A stretch of DNA of 25,677 bases from a virus: the IMG/VR virus record IMGVR_UViG_3300029266_000861, positions 1 to 25,677 of that record, one strand, 5' to 3'. Position numbers and translations under genes: made by a program. Positions 3,040-25,677 of the stretch are shown piece after piece. Numbering within the stretch: position 1 is the stretch's first letter; each line of letters opens with the position of its first letter. The notes under the pieces were generated by a model that searched no databases, was not told the DNA's origin, and worked only from the letters and a program-made list of their open reading frames with translations.

Positions 3040-3489
3040 ATGAATTGGTTATATAATGGAGAAGAAATTACAAACATATCTCAATTTCACCCCGATACAT
3101 TTGGGTTTGTTTATCAAGTAACTACCCCCGATGGTAAAAAATACATAGGTAAAAAAGTATTATACCACAATCACAAGAAAAAATTAACTAAAGTAGAACT
3201 TGCTGCTCAAACTGGAAGGGGAAGGAGAAAATCTTATAAAATTGTCCAAAAAGAAAGTGATTGGAAAAAATATGTAGGATCGAATTCCGAATTAAAACGT
3301 AAATTAACTGAAGGAGAAGTTACGCTGGAAGATTTGGATAAACAAGTTTTAGAAATTGCTCTTCATAAGAAACATCTTACATACCTGGAGACTAAGTATT
3401 TATTTTGTTATGAAGTACTAGAAAACCCAGAAGAGTATTATAACGATAATATACTAGGAAAGTTTTTTACAAACGACTTTGATTTTTAA
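3040..3489 (+). CDS. GIY-YIG-like endonuclease (putative)
   Basis: A 149-aa protein with a variant GIY-YIG nuclease core. GFVYQVT (residues 22-28) replaces the GIY strand, KYIGKK (34-39) is the YIG strand, GSNSELK (80-86) follows, then a helix with Glu117 (YLETKYL) and Asn135 (YYNDN), in the positions expected for the metal-binding Glu and the late Asn of the family. Such stand-alone GIY-YIG proteins in phages may be homing endonucleases or act on host or competing DNA; no intron or split gene is seen here, so homing is not proved. It sits between structural genes and the primase, typical of a free-standing inserted gene. The start ATG follows a poly-A stretch. Confidence 0.6.
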   Translation: MNWLYNGEEITNISQFHPDTFGFVYQVTTPDGKKYIGKKVLYHNHKKKLTKVELAAQTGRGRRKSYKIVQKESDWKKYVGSNSELKRKLTEGEVTLEDLDKQVLEIALHKKHLTYLETKYLFCYEVLENPEEYYNDNILGKFFTNDFDF

Positions 3490-3513: not shown

Positions 3514-4437
3514 ATGATTAATCATCTTTTAGTAACTCTAATAGATTCTGTAATAGGTAAGGGCAAATCCACATCCAGGGGTAATTATGCTTATCACTGT
3601 CCTTTTTGTAAGCACCATAAACCTAAAATGGAGGTGAACTTTACAGAAAATAAAAAAGGTCATAATCCATGGCATTGTTGGGTATGTAATACTAGAGGAA
3701 AAACAATCCCAGGTCTCCTTAAAAAAATGGAGGCTTATGATAAGATTGATGAAGCTAAAAAATTAATCCCCCAGGGATCATTTGTTAATGAATCCATAAT
3801 AAAAAATGATTTATTTTTACCTAAAGAATATATTCCATTTATAGATAAACCTACCAGCTTAATGGCAAGGCATGCTCTTACTTACTTAAAAAATAGAGGA
3901 GTTACTATAGAGGATATGATTAAGTACCATATGGGGTATTGTGAAAGTGGAGAATATCAAAATATGATTATTATTCCTTCTTATGATGATAAGGGTAATC
4001 TTAATTATTTTACAGCCCGTAGTTTTGAAAAAGATCCCTATAGAAAATATAAAAACCCATCAGTGTCTCGCGATATTGTACCGTTTGAAATGTTTATAAA
4101 CTGGAATAGCCCGTTGGTATTGTGCGAAGGACCATTTGACGCCATAGCCATCAAAAGGAATGCTATCCCGTTGTTAGGAAAAAATATACAAACTAATCTA
4201 ATGAAGAAAATAGTTTCTTCTAAAGTTGAAAAAATATATATAGCACTAGATAGTGATGCAATTAAATCATCACTCAGATTTTGTGAAACGTTTATGAATG
4301 AGGGTAAAGAGGTTCATTTATTAGAAATGGACGATAAAGACCCTAGTGATTTAGGATTCAAACGTTTTACTAAACTTATTCAAAAGTCTACCCCCCTAAC
4401 TTTATCTGGGCTTTTGGCTAGAAAATTAGCCCTATGA
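3514..4437 (+). CDS. DNA primase, zinc finger + Toprim (T4 gp61-like role)
   Basis: A 307-aa DnaG-superfamily primase that would make RNA primers for lagging-strand synthesis. An N-terminal zinc-binding domain has Cys29-x2-Cys32 and Cys55-x2-Cys58 (YHCPFC and WHCWVC) for template recognition. A Toprim domain follows, with the catalytic Glu205 (LVLCEGPFDA) and the metal-binding DSD at 246-248 (IALDSDA), then DDKDPSDLG near 274-282. The length is close to T4 gp61 (about 340 aa). No helicase domain is fused. It overlaps the next nuclease gene by 4 nt (ATGA), so the two are probably co-translated. A host-like promoter precedes it. Primase function is well supported; equivalence to gp61 is inferred. 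Confidence 0.85.
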   Translation: MINHLLVTLIDSVIGKGKSTSRGNYAYHCPFCKHHKPKMEVNFTENKKGHNPWHCWVCNTRGKTIPGLLKKMEAYDKIDEAKKLIPQGSFVNESIIKNDLFLPKEYIPFIDKPTSLMARHALTYLKNRGVTIEDMIKYHMGYCESGEYQNMIIIPSYDDKGNLNYFTARSFEKDPYRKYKNPSVSRDIVPFEMFINWNSPLVLCEGPFDAIAIKRNAIPLLGKNIQTNLMKKIVSSKVEKIYIALDSDAIKSSLRFCETFMNEGKEVHLLEMDDKDPSDLGFKRFTKLIQKSTPLTLSGLLARKLAL

Positions 4438-5220: not shown

Positions 5221-6015
5221 GTGAAATTATACGATATACTACAAGAAATACAAGGTAAATCTAAAGCTATTATATTAGCGGGTGCTCCCGGAGCTGGAAA
5301 AGGATATATCTTAAGGGGTTTAGATTTAGGAGGTTTAAAAGTATTAAACGTAGATGACATTTATGTCCCTATGTTAAAAAAGGCTAATATAACATTAGAC
5401 TTAAAAAATGCTACTCCCGAGGAAAGAAGCAATCAAGCTAAAGCAATGGCTGCAGCTAATAAAGAATTTAAAGGCAATTTAGCAACTACCATAGGAGAAA
5501 AAGAATCATTTATATTAGATGGTACAGGTGCTTCATTAAGAGAAACGTCTAAATTAAAAGATGAATTAGAAGGAGCAGGATATGAAGTATTTATGCTTTA
5601 CGTTTATACTGATTTAGAACGTTCTTTAAAACAAAACCAAGATAGATTCGAAAAATCAGGAGGAAAAGATAGGAGTTTAGCTCCTGCTATAGTAATGAGA
5701 ACATGGAAAAGTGTAACTCAAAACCATTCACCTTATAAAGAATTATTTGGTAATAATTTTGTGTCCGTTGCTAATACTCTAGGAGATGAAAAGTTAACTG
5801 ATTTAGAAGATATAGTAACTAAATATCTTACACCTTTTGACCCTAAAGGCACTAAACCTAAAACACCTAAGGAACAAGCCAGGTCAGATGCTCGAAAAGC
5901 TAAAGATGCTGAAGAAATAAAAGCATTATTAAGTGATGCAGGGGTAAAAGATATTATAAATACCTCTGTATCAGCTGAAGAAGCTCAATCTAAATTAAAA
6001 TCCTTTTTAGCATGA
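5221..6015 (+). CDS. P-loop kinase (zeta-toxin/AAA_33-like) with CTS-like leader
   Basis: A 264-aa protein starting at GTG; this start retains a short amphipathic leader (MKLYDILQEIQ) resembling T4 capsid-targeting peptides. A Walker A loop is at residues 21-28 (GAPGAGKG), followed by Asp45/Asp46 in LNVDDIY and FILDGTGAS (98-105), the arrangement seen in zeta-toxin and polynucleotide-kinase-like small-molecule or nucleotide kinases. The region near 130-160 has several Arg/Lys that could form the lid. The C-terminal 60 residues are Lys/Glu/Ala-rich and probably helical. It overlaps the next gene by ATGA. Substrate is unknown; UDP-sugar, nucleotide or nucleic-acid phosphorylation are all possible. 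The leader suggests packaging into the head, which is inference. Confidence 0.7.
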   Translation: MKLYDILQEIQGKSKAIILAGAPGAGKGYILRGLDLGGLKVLNVDDIYVPMLKKANITLDLKNATPEERSNQAKAMAAANKEFKGNLATTIGEKESFILDGTGASLRETSKLKDELEGAGYEVFMLYVYTDLERSLKQNQDRFEKSGGKDRSLAPAIVMRTWKSVTQNHSPYKELFGNNFVSVANTLGDEKLTDLEDIVTKYLTPFDPKGTKPKTPKEQARSDARKAKDAEEIKALLSDAGVKDIINTSVSAEEAQSKLKSFLA

Positions 6016-17395: not shown

Positions 17396-17430
17396 AGCTG
17401 TGACCTCAATTTGGGGTCACAGCTTTTTTT
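17396..17430 (+). terminator. Rho-independent terminator
   Basis: AGCTGTGACC pairs with GGTCACAGCT (10 bp, extendable by T-G and C-G pairs to 12 bp) around a loop of AATTT, followed by seven T. It lies 58 nt after the virion protein gene and is the only clear intrinsic terminator in the window. A weaker stem (GACTG/CAGTC, 17358-17376) lies just upstream. Confidence 0.9.
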
Positions 17431-17437
17431 ATTTATA
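17430..17437 (+). promoter_or_regulatory. TATTTATA motif abutting the terminator
   Basis: TATTTATATTTACG begins at the last T of the terminator and ends 22 nt before the ATG at 17460. It probably restarts transcription for the dehydrogenase operon. The overlap with terminator T's makes it slightly less certain than the others. Confidence 0.4.
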
Positions 17438-17459
17438 TTTACGTAATTTCAATACAACA

Positions 17460-18959
17460 ATGGAAAAAGTAGTAATCGTAGGAGCAGGTGTAGCAGGGGT
17501 TAATGCTGCAACTAAATTAGTTGATAATGGATATGATGGTTCTAAAATCACCATTATTGATATGGGCAATGATCCTTATAACCGTAAACCTGAAGAAGTA
17601 ATGACAGGTTTTATGGGTGCAGGAGGTTGGTCTGATGGTAAACTTACATACCATACTTCAATAGGTGGTCATTTAACTAAGTATACTGGTGATGAAAAAG
17701 CAATGGAGTTAATGGATCAAGTAATCACTAATTTTAAACGTTTCCACCCTAAACCAGAAGAAGTACAATGTTCTAATCCTGTAGCAGAACCTGATTTTAT
17801 TAAACCCTATTTTGGCTTACGTTTATTTCCAGTTTGGCACGTAGGTACAGATTATCTACATGAGATTGGTAAAAATTGGTATGATTATCTTTGCGATAAA
17901 GGTGTTAAATTCATTTGGAAAACTAAGGTTACATCAATTGATTTTGATGCCCAACAATTACATACTAATAAAAGTACAGAGGACAATGATTGGATAGGAT
18001 ATGATACACTTATATTTGGTGTAGGTAAATCAGGTATTGATTTTGGTAAAAAATTAGCAGAACAATATGAACTACCTACAGAACCAAAACCAGTACAAAT
18101 TGGTGTTCGATTTGAGTCACCACAAAAACACTTCCAAAAACTAATTGATGTAAGTTATGATTTTAAACTTTATCGTAAATTTGAAGATGAAGGTGTATCA
18201 CTTCGCTCATTTTGTACTAACAATAATGCGGCTTATGTGGCCCTAGAAGAAACTTATGGTGATTATAGTTACAATGGCCATGCTAAGAAAGGAGAAGAAC
18301 ACCGAAATAATATGACTAATTTTGGTATTTTAATGGAAGTTAAAGGGATTGATAAACCATTTGACTGGTCTCGTGAATTAGTTTCTAAGGTAAATAAAAT
18401 GGATATTGTATCCGGTGAGGGTAGAGGAGGAAAAAAAGCAATAGGTCGTTTTCAAGACAAATACAAAGCAGGTCTTTATTATAGTCCTTCATATAAAGAT
18501 AAAACACTTACATCTGAAGGTGATTGGGTTAAAGCACATTACATCAATGAAAAAGGTCTCCAAGAAGTAAAAGATGCATTTAAAGGATATTTTCAATATA
18601 TAGAAGATTTTATTGAGGATATGAAAAAAGTATTTCCAACACTTGGGGATGATTGGGGAATTTATGTACCTGAGGTAAAATATTTATCACCTGAACCACT
18701 TGTAAATTATCAAGATTTAAGTTTAACTACATATCCTAATGTACACTTTGTAGGTGACGCATTAAGTGCAAGAGGTATAACAGTATCAGGAGCACAAGGT
18801 ACTTTAGTAGCAGAACAAATATTATTACTACAAAAAGGGGTAAATAATTTTTTAAATGATCCTGCTAATAACCAAGAACCTTATGAAATGGGGGACACAC
18901 ATGAATATCTTATGGGGGGTTTAACAATGCCTAAAGAAAACACTAATAAATTACAATAA
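17460..18959 (+). CDS. FAD-dependent dehydrogenase (COG2509-like), phage-borne metabolic gene
   Basis: A 499-aa flavoprotein. The Rossmann FAD-binding motif is at the very N-terminus: VVIVGAGVAGVNAA with Gly8, Gly10, Gly13, and Asp about 32 (ITIID) ending strand 2. A second motif, FMGAGGWSDGKLTYHTS (about 55-72), resembles the GAGT-FSDGKL region of uncharacterised FAD-dependent dehydrogenases (COG2509). C-terminal VHFVGDALSARGITVSGAQGTLVAEQIL is the closing FAD-contact region. ATG at 17460 is chosen over an upstream in-frame ATG inside the terminator. Substrate unknown. Not part of a virion or replication module, so it looks like an auxiliary metabolic gene. TAATG overlap leads into the next small gene. 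Confidence 0.8.
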   Translation: MEKVVIVGAGVAGVNAATKLVDNGYDGSKITIIDMGNDPYNRKPEEVMTGFMGAGGWSDGKLTYHTSIGGHLTKYTGDEKAMELMDQVITNFKRFHPKPEEVQCSNPVAEPDFIKPYFGLRLFPVWHVGTDYLHEIGKNWYDYLCDKGVKFIWKTKVTSIDFDAQQLHTNKSTEDNDWIGYDTLIFGVGKSGIDFGKKLAEQYELPTEPKPVQIGVRFESPQKHFQKLIDVSYDFKLYRKFEDEGVSLRSFCTNNNAAYVALEETYGDYSYNGHAKKGEEHRNNMTNFGILMEVKGIDKPFDWSRELVSKVNKMDIVSGEGRGGKKAIGRFQDKYKAGLYYSPSYKDKTLTSEGDWVKAHYINEKGLQEVKDAFKGYFQYIEDFIEDMKKVFPTLGDDWGIYVPEVKYLSPEPLVNYQDLSLTTYPNVHFVGDALSARGITVSGAQGTLVAEQILLLQKGVNNFLNDPANNQEPYEMGDTHEYLMGGLTMPKENTNKLQ

Positions 18960-20065: not shown

Positions 20066-20442
20066 AACATTTACTATTAATCCTATTTTTAGGAGTATCT
20101 AGTATTTGCTATTCACAAGATACTCTTCAAATTCCTGAAGTGGAACTTGAAGAGTTTTTCTTAGCTTTAGATACTCTTAAGGTTCAAGACTCATTAAAAA
20201 CTAGTTTAATTCTAGATTTAGAAAGAACTGTAAAATTATATGGGTTACTTGCTGAACAGGATAGTTTAGTTATAAAATTTAAAGATGAAGAAATTTACCT
20301 TTTAAATGAACAAATCCAACTTCATTTAAATAGACTAAACGAAGTAGATAAATGGTACAATAAACCATCAGTAGGAATAGCTGCAGGATTTTTAGGTACT
20401 ATATTTTTAATCCAAGCCCTCGATTATACACTCCCTGAATGA
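20062..20442 (+). CDS. Candidate unimolecular spanin (signal peptide, coiled coil, C-terminal TM)
   Basis: A 126-aa protein. An N-terminal signal sequence (MKHLLLILFLGVSSICYSQD) ends in the Ser-Gln style typical of Flavobacteria; Cys16 lies there but the preceding SSI is a poor lipobox. Residues 25-95 are an alpha-helical Leu/Glu/Lys coiled coil (LKTSLILDLERTVKLYGLLA). A C-terminal hydrophobic helix (about 104-120, VGIAAGFLGTIFLIQAL) follows. This N-terminal export signal plus coiled coil plus C-terminal TM is the layout of single-gene spanins such as T1 gp11, which fuse outer and inner membranes at lysis. A structural or membrane chaperone role is the alternative. ATGA overlaps join it to both neighbours, including the terminase. 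Confidence 0.5.
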   Translation: MKHLLLILFLGVSSICYSQDTLQIPEVELEEFFLALDTLKVQDSLKTSLILDLERTVKLYGLLAEQDSLVIKFKDEEIYLLNEQIQLHLNRLNEVDKWYNKPSVGIAAGFLGTIFLIQALDYTLPE

Positions 20443-22010
20443 GTGATTTAAAACAGATAATAAGACAAGAGTACCTTAAATGTGCTCAGGATCCTATCCA
20501 CTTTATGAAAAAGTACTGTATGATCCAACACCCCCAAAGAGGTAGAATTAATTTTCATCTATACCCCTTTCAAGAAAAAGTACTTAAATTATTTGAAGAC
20601 AATCCTTATTCTATTATTCTTAAATCTCGTCAATTAGGAATCTCTACATTATCTGCAGGTTATTCTTTATGGTTAATGACTTTTCATAAAGATAAAAATG
20701 TTCTTTGTATAGCTACTAAGCAGGAAACTGCTAAAAATATGGTTACTAAAGTTAAATTTATGTATGAAAATTTACCTTCGTGGCTTAAAGTAGAATTTGA
20801 AGAAAATAATAAACTAGCCCTTCGATTACGAAATGGATCCCAAATTAAAGCTACTTCAGCATCAAGTGATGCGGGTAGATCAGAAGCAGTATCTCTTTTA
20901 ATAATTGATGAGGCTGCTTTTATTGAAAATATTGGTGAAATTTGGGCTTCGGCTCAACAAACTCTTGCTACAGGTGGTGGTTGTATAGCATTATCTACTC
21001 CATATGGTACAGGTAATTGGTTTCATCAAACTTGGGCTAGAGCTGAGGCTAAAGAAAATGAATTTCTTCCTATTAAACTACCTTGGTATGTCCACCCTGA
21101 GCGTGATCAAGAGTGGAGAGATAGACAAGATGAATTGTTAGGAGATCCTAGAATGGCAGCACAAGAGTGCGACTGTGATTTTAGTACTTCTGGAGATATA
21201 GTATTTTACCCTGAGTATTTAGAATTTATAGAAAAAACTACTATTATAGAACCCCTAGAAAGAAGAGGAGTAGACCAAAATTTATGGATTTGGCAACCTG
21301 CTGATTATACTAGACAATATATGATTTCAGCGGACGTTGCTCGGGGTGATGGAAAAGACTATTCAGCATTTCACATTTTTGATGTAGAATCTGCTACCCA
21401 AGTAGGTGAATATAAGGGGCAAATAGGTACTAAAGATTTTGGTAATATATTAGTAGCTATGGCTACCGAGTATAATAATGCCCTACTTGCAGTTGAAAAT
21501 GCTAATATTGGGTGGAGTACTATTCAAACTATTATAGAAAAAAACTATCCTAATTTATATTACTCACCTAAAGCTGACAATGTTAGTGTAGATTCATATT
21601 TAGCAAATTATGAAAATGATGCTAGTATGACTGCTGGGTTTACAATGTCATCTAGGACTCGTCCTATGGTTATAGGAAAATTCCAAGAATATGTGGCCGA
21701 TAAAGGGGTTACTATTCAATCAAAACGTTTATTAGAAGAAATGAAAACTTTTATTTGGAAATACGGTAGGGCAGAGGCACAACAGGGTTATAATGATGAT
21801 TTAATAATGAGTTTTGGAATAGGGTTGTATGTTAGAGATACTGCCCTTAAATTTAGACAACACGGATTAGATATTACAAAAGCAGCTTTAGGTTCATTTC
21901 ACAAAACCACAACCAGTTATCAAGGGGCTTATTTTTCAACAGGTCAAGATAACCCATATCATATGGATAATGGGAAGGGTGGAAATGAGAATTTTAGCTG
22001 GCTTTTATAA
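20439..22010 (+). CDS. Terminase large subunit (T4 gp17-like)
   Basis: A 523-aa DNA packaging motor. The ATPase domain has the phage-type Walker A KSRQLGIST (62-70), Walker B LLIIDEAAF with Asp157-Glu158, and coupling motif ALSTPYG (184-190). The RNase-H-like nuclease domain has Asp299 (SADVARGDGKDYS), Glu353 (LAVENANIGWS) and Asp453/454 (YNDDLIMSFG). Length is below T4 gp17 (610 aa), mainly through a shorter N-terminus. It is followed by the portal gene, the usual T4-like order. No small terminase subunit was recognised in the window. Assignment is secure. Confidence 0.95.
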   Translation: MSDLKQIIRQEYLKCAQDPIHFMKKYCMIQHPQRGRINFHLYPFQEKVLKLFEDNPYSIILKSRQLGISTLSAGYSLWLMTFHKDKNVLCIATKQETAKNMVTKVKFMYENLPSWLKVEFEENNKLALRLRNGSQIKATSASSDAGRSEAVSLLIIDEAAFIENIGEIWASAQQTLATGGGCIALSTPYGTGNWFHQTWARAEAKENEFLPIKLPWYVHPERDQEWRDRQDELLGDPRMAAQECDCDFSTSGDIVFYPEYLEFIEKTTIIEPLERRGVDQNLWIWQPADYTRQYMISADVARGDGKDYSAFHIFDVESATQVGEYKGQIGTKDFGNILVAMATEYNNALLAVENANIGWSTIQTIIEKNYPNLYYSPKADNVSVDSYLANYENDASMTAGFTMSSRTRPMVIGKFQEYVADKGVTIQSKRLLEEMKTFIWKYGRAEAQQGYNDDLIMSFGIGLYVRDTALKFRQHGLDITKAALGSFHKTTTSYQGAYFSTGQDNPYHMDNGKGGNENFSWLL

Positions 22011-22018
22011 TATTTATT
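22011..22018 (+). promoter_or_regulatory. TATTTATT motif, putative late promoter
   Basis: TATTTATTCAC begins directly after the terminase stop and ends 18 nt before the portal ATG at 22037; the leader contains further A/T-rich sequence (ATATAAAAATATAC). It places the portal gene in its own late unit. Confidence 0.5.
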
Positions 22019-22036
22019 CACATATAAAAATATACT

Positions 22037-23944
22037 ATGGCTGATACAAGCGTATTTACAAGATTAAAAAGACTATTTTCTACGGACGTACTAATCCGTA
22101 ATGTAGGAGGTAGTAAACTAAAGACATTAGACTTTAGTAAATATCAACAAACGGGACAAATTGAAACTAATTCAATGATAGATAGGTACAATAGATTGTA
22201 TACTACTAACCAAATGCCCGTTTACAACCCAGCTCTTAATTACCAAACATTAAGAACTCAATTATATTCCGACTATGAAGCAATGGATACTGATGCTATT
22301 ATTGCATCAGCCTTAGATATTATTTGTGATGAATCAACCCTTAAAAATACAATGGGTGAAGTCCTCCAAATTAAATCCTCAGATGAAAACCTTCAAAAAA
22401 TTCTTTATAACCTCTTTTATGATGTTTTAAACATTGAATTTAACCTTTGGATGTGGATTCGCCAGATGTGTAAGTACGGAGATTTTTTCTTAAAATTAGA
22501 AATAGCAGAAGAGTTTGGTGTTTATAACGTAATTCCTTATACTGCTTATAATATAATTAGAGAAGAAAAAATTAGTGAATCTAATAATCACCAAGTAGAC
22601 GTTAAATTTAAGTTTGACCCGGATGGTTTAAGTGGTGGAGGAGAATATGGTGGTTACTTTGGAGGCTTACAAGGATCAGGAAAAAACACTCACAATAGTA
22701 AAGCTATATATTTTGATAATTATGAAATAGCTCACTTTAGACTTCTTTCGGATGTAAATTATTTACCCTATGGTAGAAGTTACATAGAACCCGCTCGTAA
22801 ACTTTTTAAACAATATGTACTTGCTGAAGATGCTATGTTAGTACATAGAATTGTTCGTGCCCCCGAAAAGCGTATTTTTTATATAAATGTAGGTGCTATA
22901 CCACCTGCTGAAATAGAAAACTTCATGCAGAAAACTATTTCTAAAATGAAGCGTACTCCTTATATCGACCAAAACACAGGTGATTACAATTTAAAATACA
23001 ACATGCAAAATATGTTGGAAGATTTTTATATTCCTGTTAGAGGTAACGATTCATCTACAAAAATTGAAACCACCCCAGGTCTTCAATATGATGGTATTAA
23101 GGATGTTGAATACTTAAGAGATAAATTATTTGCGGCTCTTAAAGTTCCTAAAGCATTTTTAGGATATGATAAAGATACAGACGGAAAAGCTACTTTAGCA
23201 GCAGAAGACATTAGATTTGCTCGCACCGTAGAACGTATTCAAAGAATCATCCTCTCAGAATTGTATAAAATTGCTGTTATCCATCTTTACACACAAGGGT
23301 ATGATGGTGATGATTTAGTTAATTTTGAAATCAATTTAACTACTCCTTCAATCATTTATGATCAAGAAAGAGTAGCATTAATGAAAGAAAAAGTTGATTT
23401 AGCAGCTCAAATGATGGAAACCAAGCTTTTCCCAACTGATTTTATTTATGATAATTTATTCCATTTAAGTGAAGATGAATATCATGAATTCAGAGATTTA
23501 GTTAGAGAAGATTCTAAACGTAAATTCCGTAATGCTCAATTAGAAGCTGAAGGAAACGACCCCGTAGAGTCAGGTGAATCTTATGGTACACCCCATGATT
23601 TAGCTTCATTATATGGTAAAGGAAGATATTATGATGAGCCTGATAATGTGCCTGCTGGATATAATGAAAAAGAAATGGGTCGTCCTGAAGAAAAAGTTTC
23701 TAATATTAACACCCAAGATGGTAACTTTGGAAAGGATAGATTAGGTGTTGATGCTATGAAAGGTAAAGAAAATGAATCAAATTCTGTAAAATCTTCATAT
23801 AAAGGAGGTTCTCCATTAGCTTTAGAAGCTAAAACAGCTTATTTACAAAATAGGGATATACTTAAAAAAATACCGGTTAATCGCAAACAGTTAATTTTTG
23901 AGCAAGATGAGTCGCTACTTAATGAGGATAACCTAAAGGAGTAA
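22037..23944 (+). CDS. Portal vertex protein (T4 gp20-like)
   Basis: A 635-aa protein that would form the dodecameric head portal through which DNA is pumped. Supporting features: position right after the terminase, size (T4 gp20 is 524 aa), and segments characteristic of T4-like portals: YNPALNYQTLRTQLYSDYEA, AMDTDAIIASALDIICDES, FRLLSDVNYLPYGRSYIEPA, EDAMLVHRIVRAPEKRIFYI and KVPKAFLGYDKD. The extra 110 residues are mainly a charged, probably disordered C-terminus (after about 500; SYGTPHDLASLYGKGRYYDE, then Gly/Lys/Glu-rich). The end (KQLIFEQDESLLNEDNLKE) is acidic. Assignment is secure; the C-terminal extension is unexplained. Confidence 0.9.
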   Translation: MADTSVFTRLKRLFSTDVLIRNVGGSKLKTLDFSKYQQTGQIETNSMIDRYNRLYTTNQMPVYNPALNYQTLRTQLYSDYEAMDTDAIIASALDIICDESTLKNTMGEVLQIKSSDENLQKILYNLFYDVLNIEFNLWMWIRQMCKYGDFFLKLEIAEEFGVYNVIPYTAYNIIREEKISESNNHQVDVKFKFDPDGLSGGGEYGGYFGGLQGSGKNTHNSKAIYFDNYEIAHFRLLSDVNYLPYGRSYIEPARKLFKQYVLAEDAMLVHRIVRAPEKRIFYINVGAIPPAEIENFMQKTISKMKRTPYIDQNTGDYNLKYNMQNMLEDFYIPVRGNDSSTKIETTPGLQYDGIKDVEYLRDKLFAALKVPKAFLGYDKDTDGKATLAAEDIRFARTVERIQRIILSELYKIAVIHLYTQGYDGDDLVNFEINLTTPSIIYDQERVALMKEKVDLAAQMMETKLFPTDFIYDNLFHLSEDEYHEFRDLVREDSKRKFRNAQLEAEGNDPVESGESYGTPHDLASLYGKGRYYDEPDNVPAGYNEKEMGRPEEKVSNINTQDGNFGKDRLGVDAMKGKENESNSVKSSYKGGSPLALEAKTAYLQNRDILKKIPVNRKQLIFEQDESLLNEDNLKE

Positions 23945-24834: not shown

Positions 24835-25379
24835 TGCCTATTAAACCTAAAGAACTAAATCCTAATTTTATTAAAAAAATTGAGGGTAAATATGGTCCTA
24901 TAAGTAACGAGGATTTTTTTTCTGATAATTTAAGTTATTATGCTAAAGCTAATAAACCTGAAGAAAGAAGTGAAGGAGGAGGTGTAACTCATACTATTAT
25001 TGATCTTCCAAGTTTTATAGAATTGTTTAAAACTTTAGATAAGGCTAAAGAGGTTGCTAAAGACCTAACTACCCAGAAAGAATTAAGAGGTGATCAGGAC
25101 TATAAAGAACAATATAAAAAAATTGCAGATACTTTTAACAAGTTTAGAACATTTTTCAGAAAAAACTACCCAGATCAATATTCTATGATAAGATCATCAG
25201 TTGATGAAAGTTTAAAAGAAGCATCAACTTCAGCAGGAGTTTCGGGTTATTCAACCCCATATGCATTTGGAAAGTCCTCAATATCAACATACACTAAAAT
25301 GGGCTATAAACCCGTAAACCAGAAGTCTTTAAGAAAAAAATCAAAAGGTATAGACTTTATTGATTTATATAAAGATTAA
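24834..25379 (+). CDS. Conserved post-portal protein 2, probable prohead component
   Basis: A 181-aa protein with a helical charged first two-thirds (FIELFKTLDKAKEVAKDLTT, TFNKFRTFFRKNYPDQY) and a C-terminal Ser/Thr/Gly tail (EASTSAGVSGYSTPYAFGKS) that ends FIDLYKD. The EASTSAGVSGYSTP-type tail is one I recall in phage head-core proteins. ESLKEA near residue 123-128 contains L-K-E, a possible prohead-protease site separating the tail. Function inferred only from position between portal and a CTS-type gene. Confidence 0.55.
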   Translation: MPIKPKELNPNFIKKIEGKYGPISNEDFFSDNLSYYAKANKPEERSEGGGVTHTIIDLPSFIELFKTLDKAKEVAKDLTTQKELRGDQDYKEQYKKIADTFNKFRTFFRKNYPDQYSMIRSSVDESLKEASTSAGVSGYSTPYAFGKSSISTYTKMGYKPVNQKSLRKKSKGIDFIDLYKD

Positions 25380-25387
25380 TATTTATA
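25380..25387 (+). promoter_or_regulatory. TATTTATA motif, 3 nt before start codon
   Basis: TATTTATAATC abuts the ATG at 25391; third example of the leaderless spacing. The first T belongs to the previous gene's stop region. Confidence 0.5.
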
Positions 25388-25390
25388 ATC

Positions 25391-25609
25391 ATGAAAACAT
25401 TACAAGAACAATATAATTTAATTAAAGAAGGAAAAGGACATAAAGATGTGTTCTTGAAGGAAGCAAAAAGACTGTTTCCTAATGTTGTTCCTAACAGCTC
25501 TACATTCAATCAAACTACTAAATTATTAAAGCAACGTAGTGTAATTAATGAAAATATCTTTCCACTAATACCATCCTCAGGATTAAATCCTTTTACTTCT
25601 TTTGCTTGA
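25391..25609 (+). CDS. CTS-leader prohead core-like protein, 3' part disrupted
   Basis: The first 54 residues look like a normal phage gene: leader MKTLQEQYNLIKEGKGHKDV, then FLKEAKRLFPNVVP and TKLLKQRSVINEN, a pattern I recall at the start of longer core or scaffold proteins downstream of the portal. After about residue 55 (nt 25555) the frame continues only to a TGA at 25609, while the opposite strand becomes coding-like (see 25510-25677). The gene therefore seems cut off by a strand switch rather than naturally short at 72 aa. The L-x-E motif appears weakly (NLIKEG). Assignment to a core/scaffold role is by position and leader. Confidence 0.55.
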   Translation: MKTLQEQYNLIKEGKGHKDVFLKEAKRLFPNVVPNSSTFNQTTKLLKQRSVINENIFPLIPSSGLNPFTSFA

Positions 25610-25677
25610 TCCATAGTTAACTTAGGATCTTTTTCCATTTCAACTCTTAAACCATTTAAATATTGATCAAAGATTTG
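25510..25677 (-). CDS. Reverse-strand fragment of a core-like protein (partial, inverted)
   Basis: Reading leftward from the window edge, 55 codons are open: the start is outside and TGA lies at 25512-25510. The first 28 residues (QIFDQYLNGLRVEMEKDPKL, then TMDQAKEV) look coding and resemble, from memory, the C-terminal half of the same protein family whose N-terminus is on the + strand at 25391. The remaining residues overlap that gene and are probably a shadow. It is the only convincing minus-strand coding signal in the window. Most likely an inverted piece of the same gene; an independent minus-strand gene is less likely. Confidence 0.4.
   Translation of the reverse strand, partial: QIFDQYLNGLRVEMEKDPKLTMDQAKEVKGFNPEDGISGKIFSLITLRCFNNLVV

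Follow-up and report, generated by a model that had tools for sequence, protein, structure and literature searches.

The DNA analysed here, hereafter the window, is the whole of an IMG/VR virus record of 25,677 bases; the record is linear, and the right edge of the window is the end of the contig. Toward this edge, the window carries in order a terminase large subunit gene (20439), a T4-type portal gene gp20 (22037), two small genes and a + strand gene starting at 25391, the subject of this analysis. The terminase large subunit and the gp20 portal (20439-23944) are both of the T4 type and the portal shares about 61% identity with its counterpart in Flavobacterium phage vB_FspM_immuto_2-6A (Immutovirus immuto), which suggests that this phage is probably a member of an uncultured, Immutovirus-related group. 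In immuto, a prohead protease and the major capsid protein are encoded downstream, and the gene order is that of a T4-type head cluster. Because of its position, which in T4 is occupied by genes 67 and 68, between genes 20 and 21, the gene at 25391 probably encodes a component of the prohead core or scaffold; its protein matched no family in PHROGs or Pfam.

The portal gene also led us to a homologue in immuto, immuto26A_200 (28% identity over 249 aligned columns, E=1e-18), a gene of a cultured phage that lies in direct orientation between the portal and the prohead protease. This homologue is distant from the window gene and, unlike it, uninverted. A small gene preceding the prohead protease in Microcystis phage Mel-JY01 was also considered as a counterpart and set aside, having no detectable similarity to the window gene.

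Elsewhere in the window, we observed a gene for a SegE-like GIY-YIG endonuclease (3040-3489; Pfam PF19835) and, within a phage gene cluster, a match to the zeta-toxin/P-loop kinase domain (5221-6015; PF06414, E=1.9e-13) whose product may be a polynucleotide kinase-like enzyme. A predicted 519-aa protein (17400-18959) has an N-terminal FAD/NAD-binding match (PF07992) confined to residues 23-64, which is unusual near head genes.

The gene at 25391 starts with an ATG (MKTLQEQYNLIKEGKGHKDVFLKEAKRLFPNVV...) and reads normally up to about 25604, yet its open frame comprises only 72 codons and closes at a TGA at 25607-25609. On the opposite strand, a 55-codon frame is still open at the right edge and encodes the peptide QIFDQYLNGLRVEMEKDPKLTMDQAKEV. 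An earlier note, made from the letters of the window, had described a flip of the coding strand inside a gene at this edge, and both the + strand gene and the minus-strand peptide are indeed present.

Comparison with relatives shows how the two pieces belong together. The nearest of them, L001, was identified among the best 80 of hundreds of related viral contigs, retrieved using the first 56 codons of the gene as query. Window positions 25000-25604 match L001 on the + strand at 94.5% identity (blastn, E=0.0), and the last 84 nt (25594-25677) match positions 4013-3930 of L001 on the minus strand at 98.8% identity (blastn, E=1.5e-36), the L001 coordinate jumping from 3819 to 4013 at the turn. 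With such E values for both pieces at the same locus, the split match is far beyond chance. Both arms fall within a single forward frame of L001, of 361 codons (MKTLQEQ...NPFSTFDKF...NNQIFDQYLNGLRVEMEKDPKLTMDQAKEVVAKN...), and the end of the record is therefore part of this gene in reverse complement; the earlier note's view that the minus-strand peptide resembles the later part of the same protein family is thus borne out. More specifically, 25391-25604 (+ strand) holds the 5' part of the gene, about 71 codons of what is a 361-aa protein in L001, truncated by the strand flip, and 25605-25677 (minus strand) carries, in reverse, sequence from further down that gene, equivalent to L001 4002-3930, which together with the turn encodes QIFDQYLNGLRVEMEKDPKLTMDQAKEV. 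In relatives, the sequence corresponding to the last 84 bases lies about 110-205 nt further downstream; according to the L001 layout, the reversed piece is expected to begin 111 nt beyond the turn. The reversed sequence has no second copy elsewhere in the record.

These homologues also bear on the reading that the minus-strand frame is a separate gene, entering from beyond the right edge and overlapping a short + strand gene at its end. The 55-codon frame does stay open to the edge, as such a gene would require. The same frame, however, is the interior of the + strand protein in relatives, and the neighbouring genes in the cultured relative all lie on the + strand. Homologues thus already refute a separate minus-strand gene, and we give it practically no credence.

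We placed the turn between 25593 and 25604, about 40-50 nt further right than the position of about 25,555 proposed earlier. The turn lies within about 10 nt that fit either arm (ACTTCTTTTG/CAAAAGAAGT), seen at 25594-25604 as an overlap of the forward and reverse matches in many relatives and in the comparison of the arms. The reverse arm CAAAAGAAGT is found in L001 at 4003-4012, and the two arms are spaced by 183 nt in that contig. The forward arm of L001 differs from ACTTCTTTTG at 2 of 11 positions, so that the shared length is an estimate; since relatives carry close variants of the forward arm (CCTTTTACTTCATTTGATAAA and similar), the arms of this strain probably share about 8-10 nt. The arms are not conserved from relative to relative. 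In this AT-rich window, inverted pairs of at least 10 nt with a spacing of 20-300 nt occur about 0.9 times per kb, and the arm pair at the turn is therefore unremarkable.

A near-palindrome, AGGATTAAATCCT, had also been noted near the junction, and it is present at about 25579-25591. It was rejected as a cause of the flip or as its breakpoint, since it lies upstream of the turn and is found, identical or nearly so, in relatives without the flip (for example the straight loci L051, L047, L050 and L053), where it is ordinary coding sequence, here the codons for GLNP.

To survey the relatives, we compared the best 80 loci all against all, together with the terminal 8.7 kb of the window, restricted to minus-strand matches. 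Every minus-strand match involved the final 130 bases of the window, which 42 of the best 80 relatives match in this way, and no pair of relatives among the fetched stretches of these 80 loci was flipped with respect to each other. The forward/reverse split of the window tail recurs against some 40 relatives besides L001. The gene runs straight through the region in at least 56 of the best 80 loci (50 recognised by script from a motif at residue 92-113, and 6 read from the same output), the remaining loci being more divergent or ending early; this comparison, which had been proposed as a check, brought to light no separate minus-strand gene. Furthermore, a degenerate pattern of the inverted junction had no match in the viral contigs scanned, and a pattern of the direct sequence, less strict than the former, matched 26 viral contigs in the same scan, the window's own record being left out of both. 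No DNA resembling the tail was found in named phages, and tblastn with a 28-aa peptide gave no match in them.

The earlier note had held out a real DNA inversion or an invertible segment as the exciting alternative. On such a reading, some 183-205 bp would be inverted in this phage, either in a programmed manner (phase variation) or as a one-off mutation in part of the population, and the contig would end inside the interval. The visible junction does have the geometry expected at the left end of a segment that has inverted between a pair of short inverted arms. The second junction, however, is absent from the record, and none of the 80 best relatives is inverted: a programmed segment would be seen in both orientations, whereas only the direct one occurs among the relatives. 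Nor do the sites resemble two conserved inverted repeats, the arms being about 10 nt long, variable among relatives and of a kind that arises by chance at the frequency given above, with the second site outside the record. No invertase or other recombinase appears among the Pfam matches of window genes of at least 90 codons, genes past the right edge being out of view, and none is found among the next annotated genes of immuto, which include the prohead protease and the major capsid protein. Moreover, the protein is stopped after 72 of about 361 codons in a gene conserved beside the portal and the prohead protease, and an inversion halting it there would most likely be lethal. We therefore regard a real inversion at this locus as very unlikely, and a low-frequency one within the putative prohead-core gene of this phage population as equally so.

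Taken together, these results identify the right end of the record, with high confidence, as a fold-back (template-switch) chimera, an artefact of assembly or amplification and not biology, which the earlier note had named as the simplest explanation; the pattern is the usual hallmark of such chimeras where contigs end. This reading fits because the flip is confined to the final 84 nt of a linear fragment, at a probable short inverted microhomology and with a small skipped interval, and because it disrupts a gene that the relatives keep intact, none of them carrying the flip. Past the turn, the record shows nearby sequence from the same gene in reverse complement (L001 4013-3930, 98.8%), and the arrangement is absent from independent assemblies, with 0 of the 80 best loci flipped and 0 contigs carrying the junction pattern. 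We propose that a 3' end within the gene at 25391 would anneal, through the about 10 nt of ACTTCTTTTG, to its complement CAAAAGAAGT, which lies about 190 nt downstream. It would then be extended or joined backwards, at the stage of genome amplification, library preparation or assembly. The resulting read or fragment would follow the gene in the forward direction as far as about 25604, leave out the intervening stretch and continue along that gene in the opposite direction. An assembler would extend the contig about 84 nt into such a chimera and stop; the record ends 73-84 nt past the turn, and one or a few chimeric reads could suffice to produce this end. Template switching in vivo, giving a genuine defective or recombinant phage genome with a fold-back end, would result in the same junction anatomy, yet the junction has no independent copy, and for a single contig end an in vitro origin is the simpler explanation; we consider the in vivo origin exceedingly improbable.

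The flip consequently matters only as data hygiene and not as a real feature of the phage. A gene caller would yield two spurious products at this edge, a 72-aa protein and a minus-strand fragment; the last 84 bases should be left unannotated, and the end of the record is best taken to lie at about 25593.

The fold-back end resembles the chimeras formed by template switching during MDA with phi29 (Lasken and Stockwell, 2007; PMC1855051), of which more than 85% are inverted sequences with an intervening deletion and over 70% show complementarity of 2-21 nt where the two parts join. The window shares with them the inversion, the intervening deletion, the short distance between the two parts and, probably, the short junction complementarity. 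In sonication libraries, reads join a strand to its own inverted complement at inverted repeats (PMC10908179), and these library-preparation reads, accounted for by the PDSM model, likewise turn into their inverted complement where a short inverted repeat occurs; they were described for human panels and as single reads, whereas the switch reported here lies at the end of a contig.
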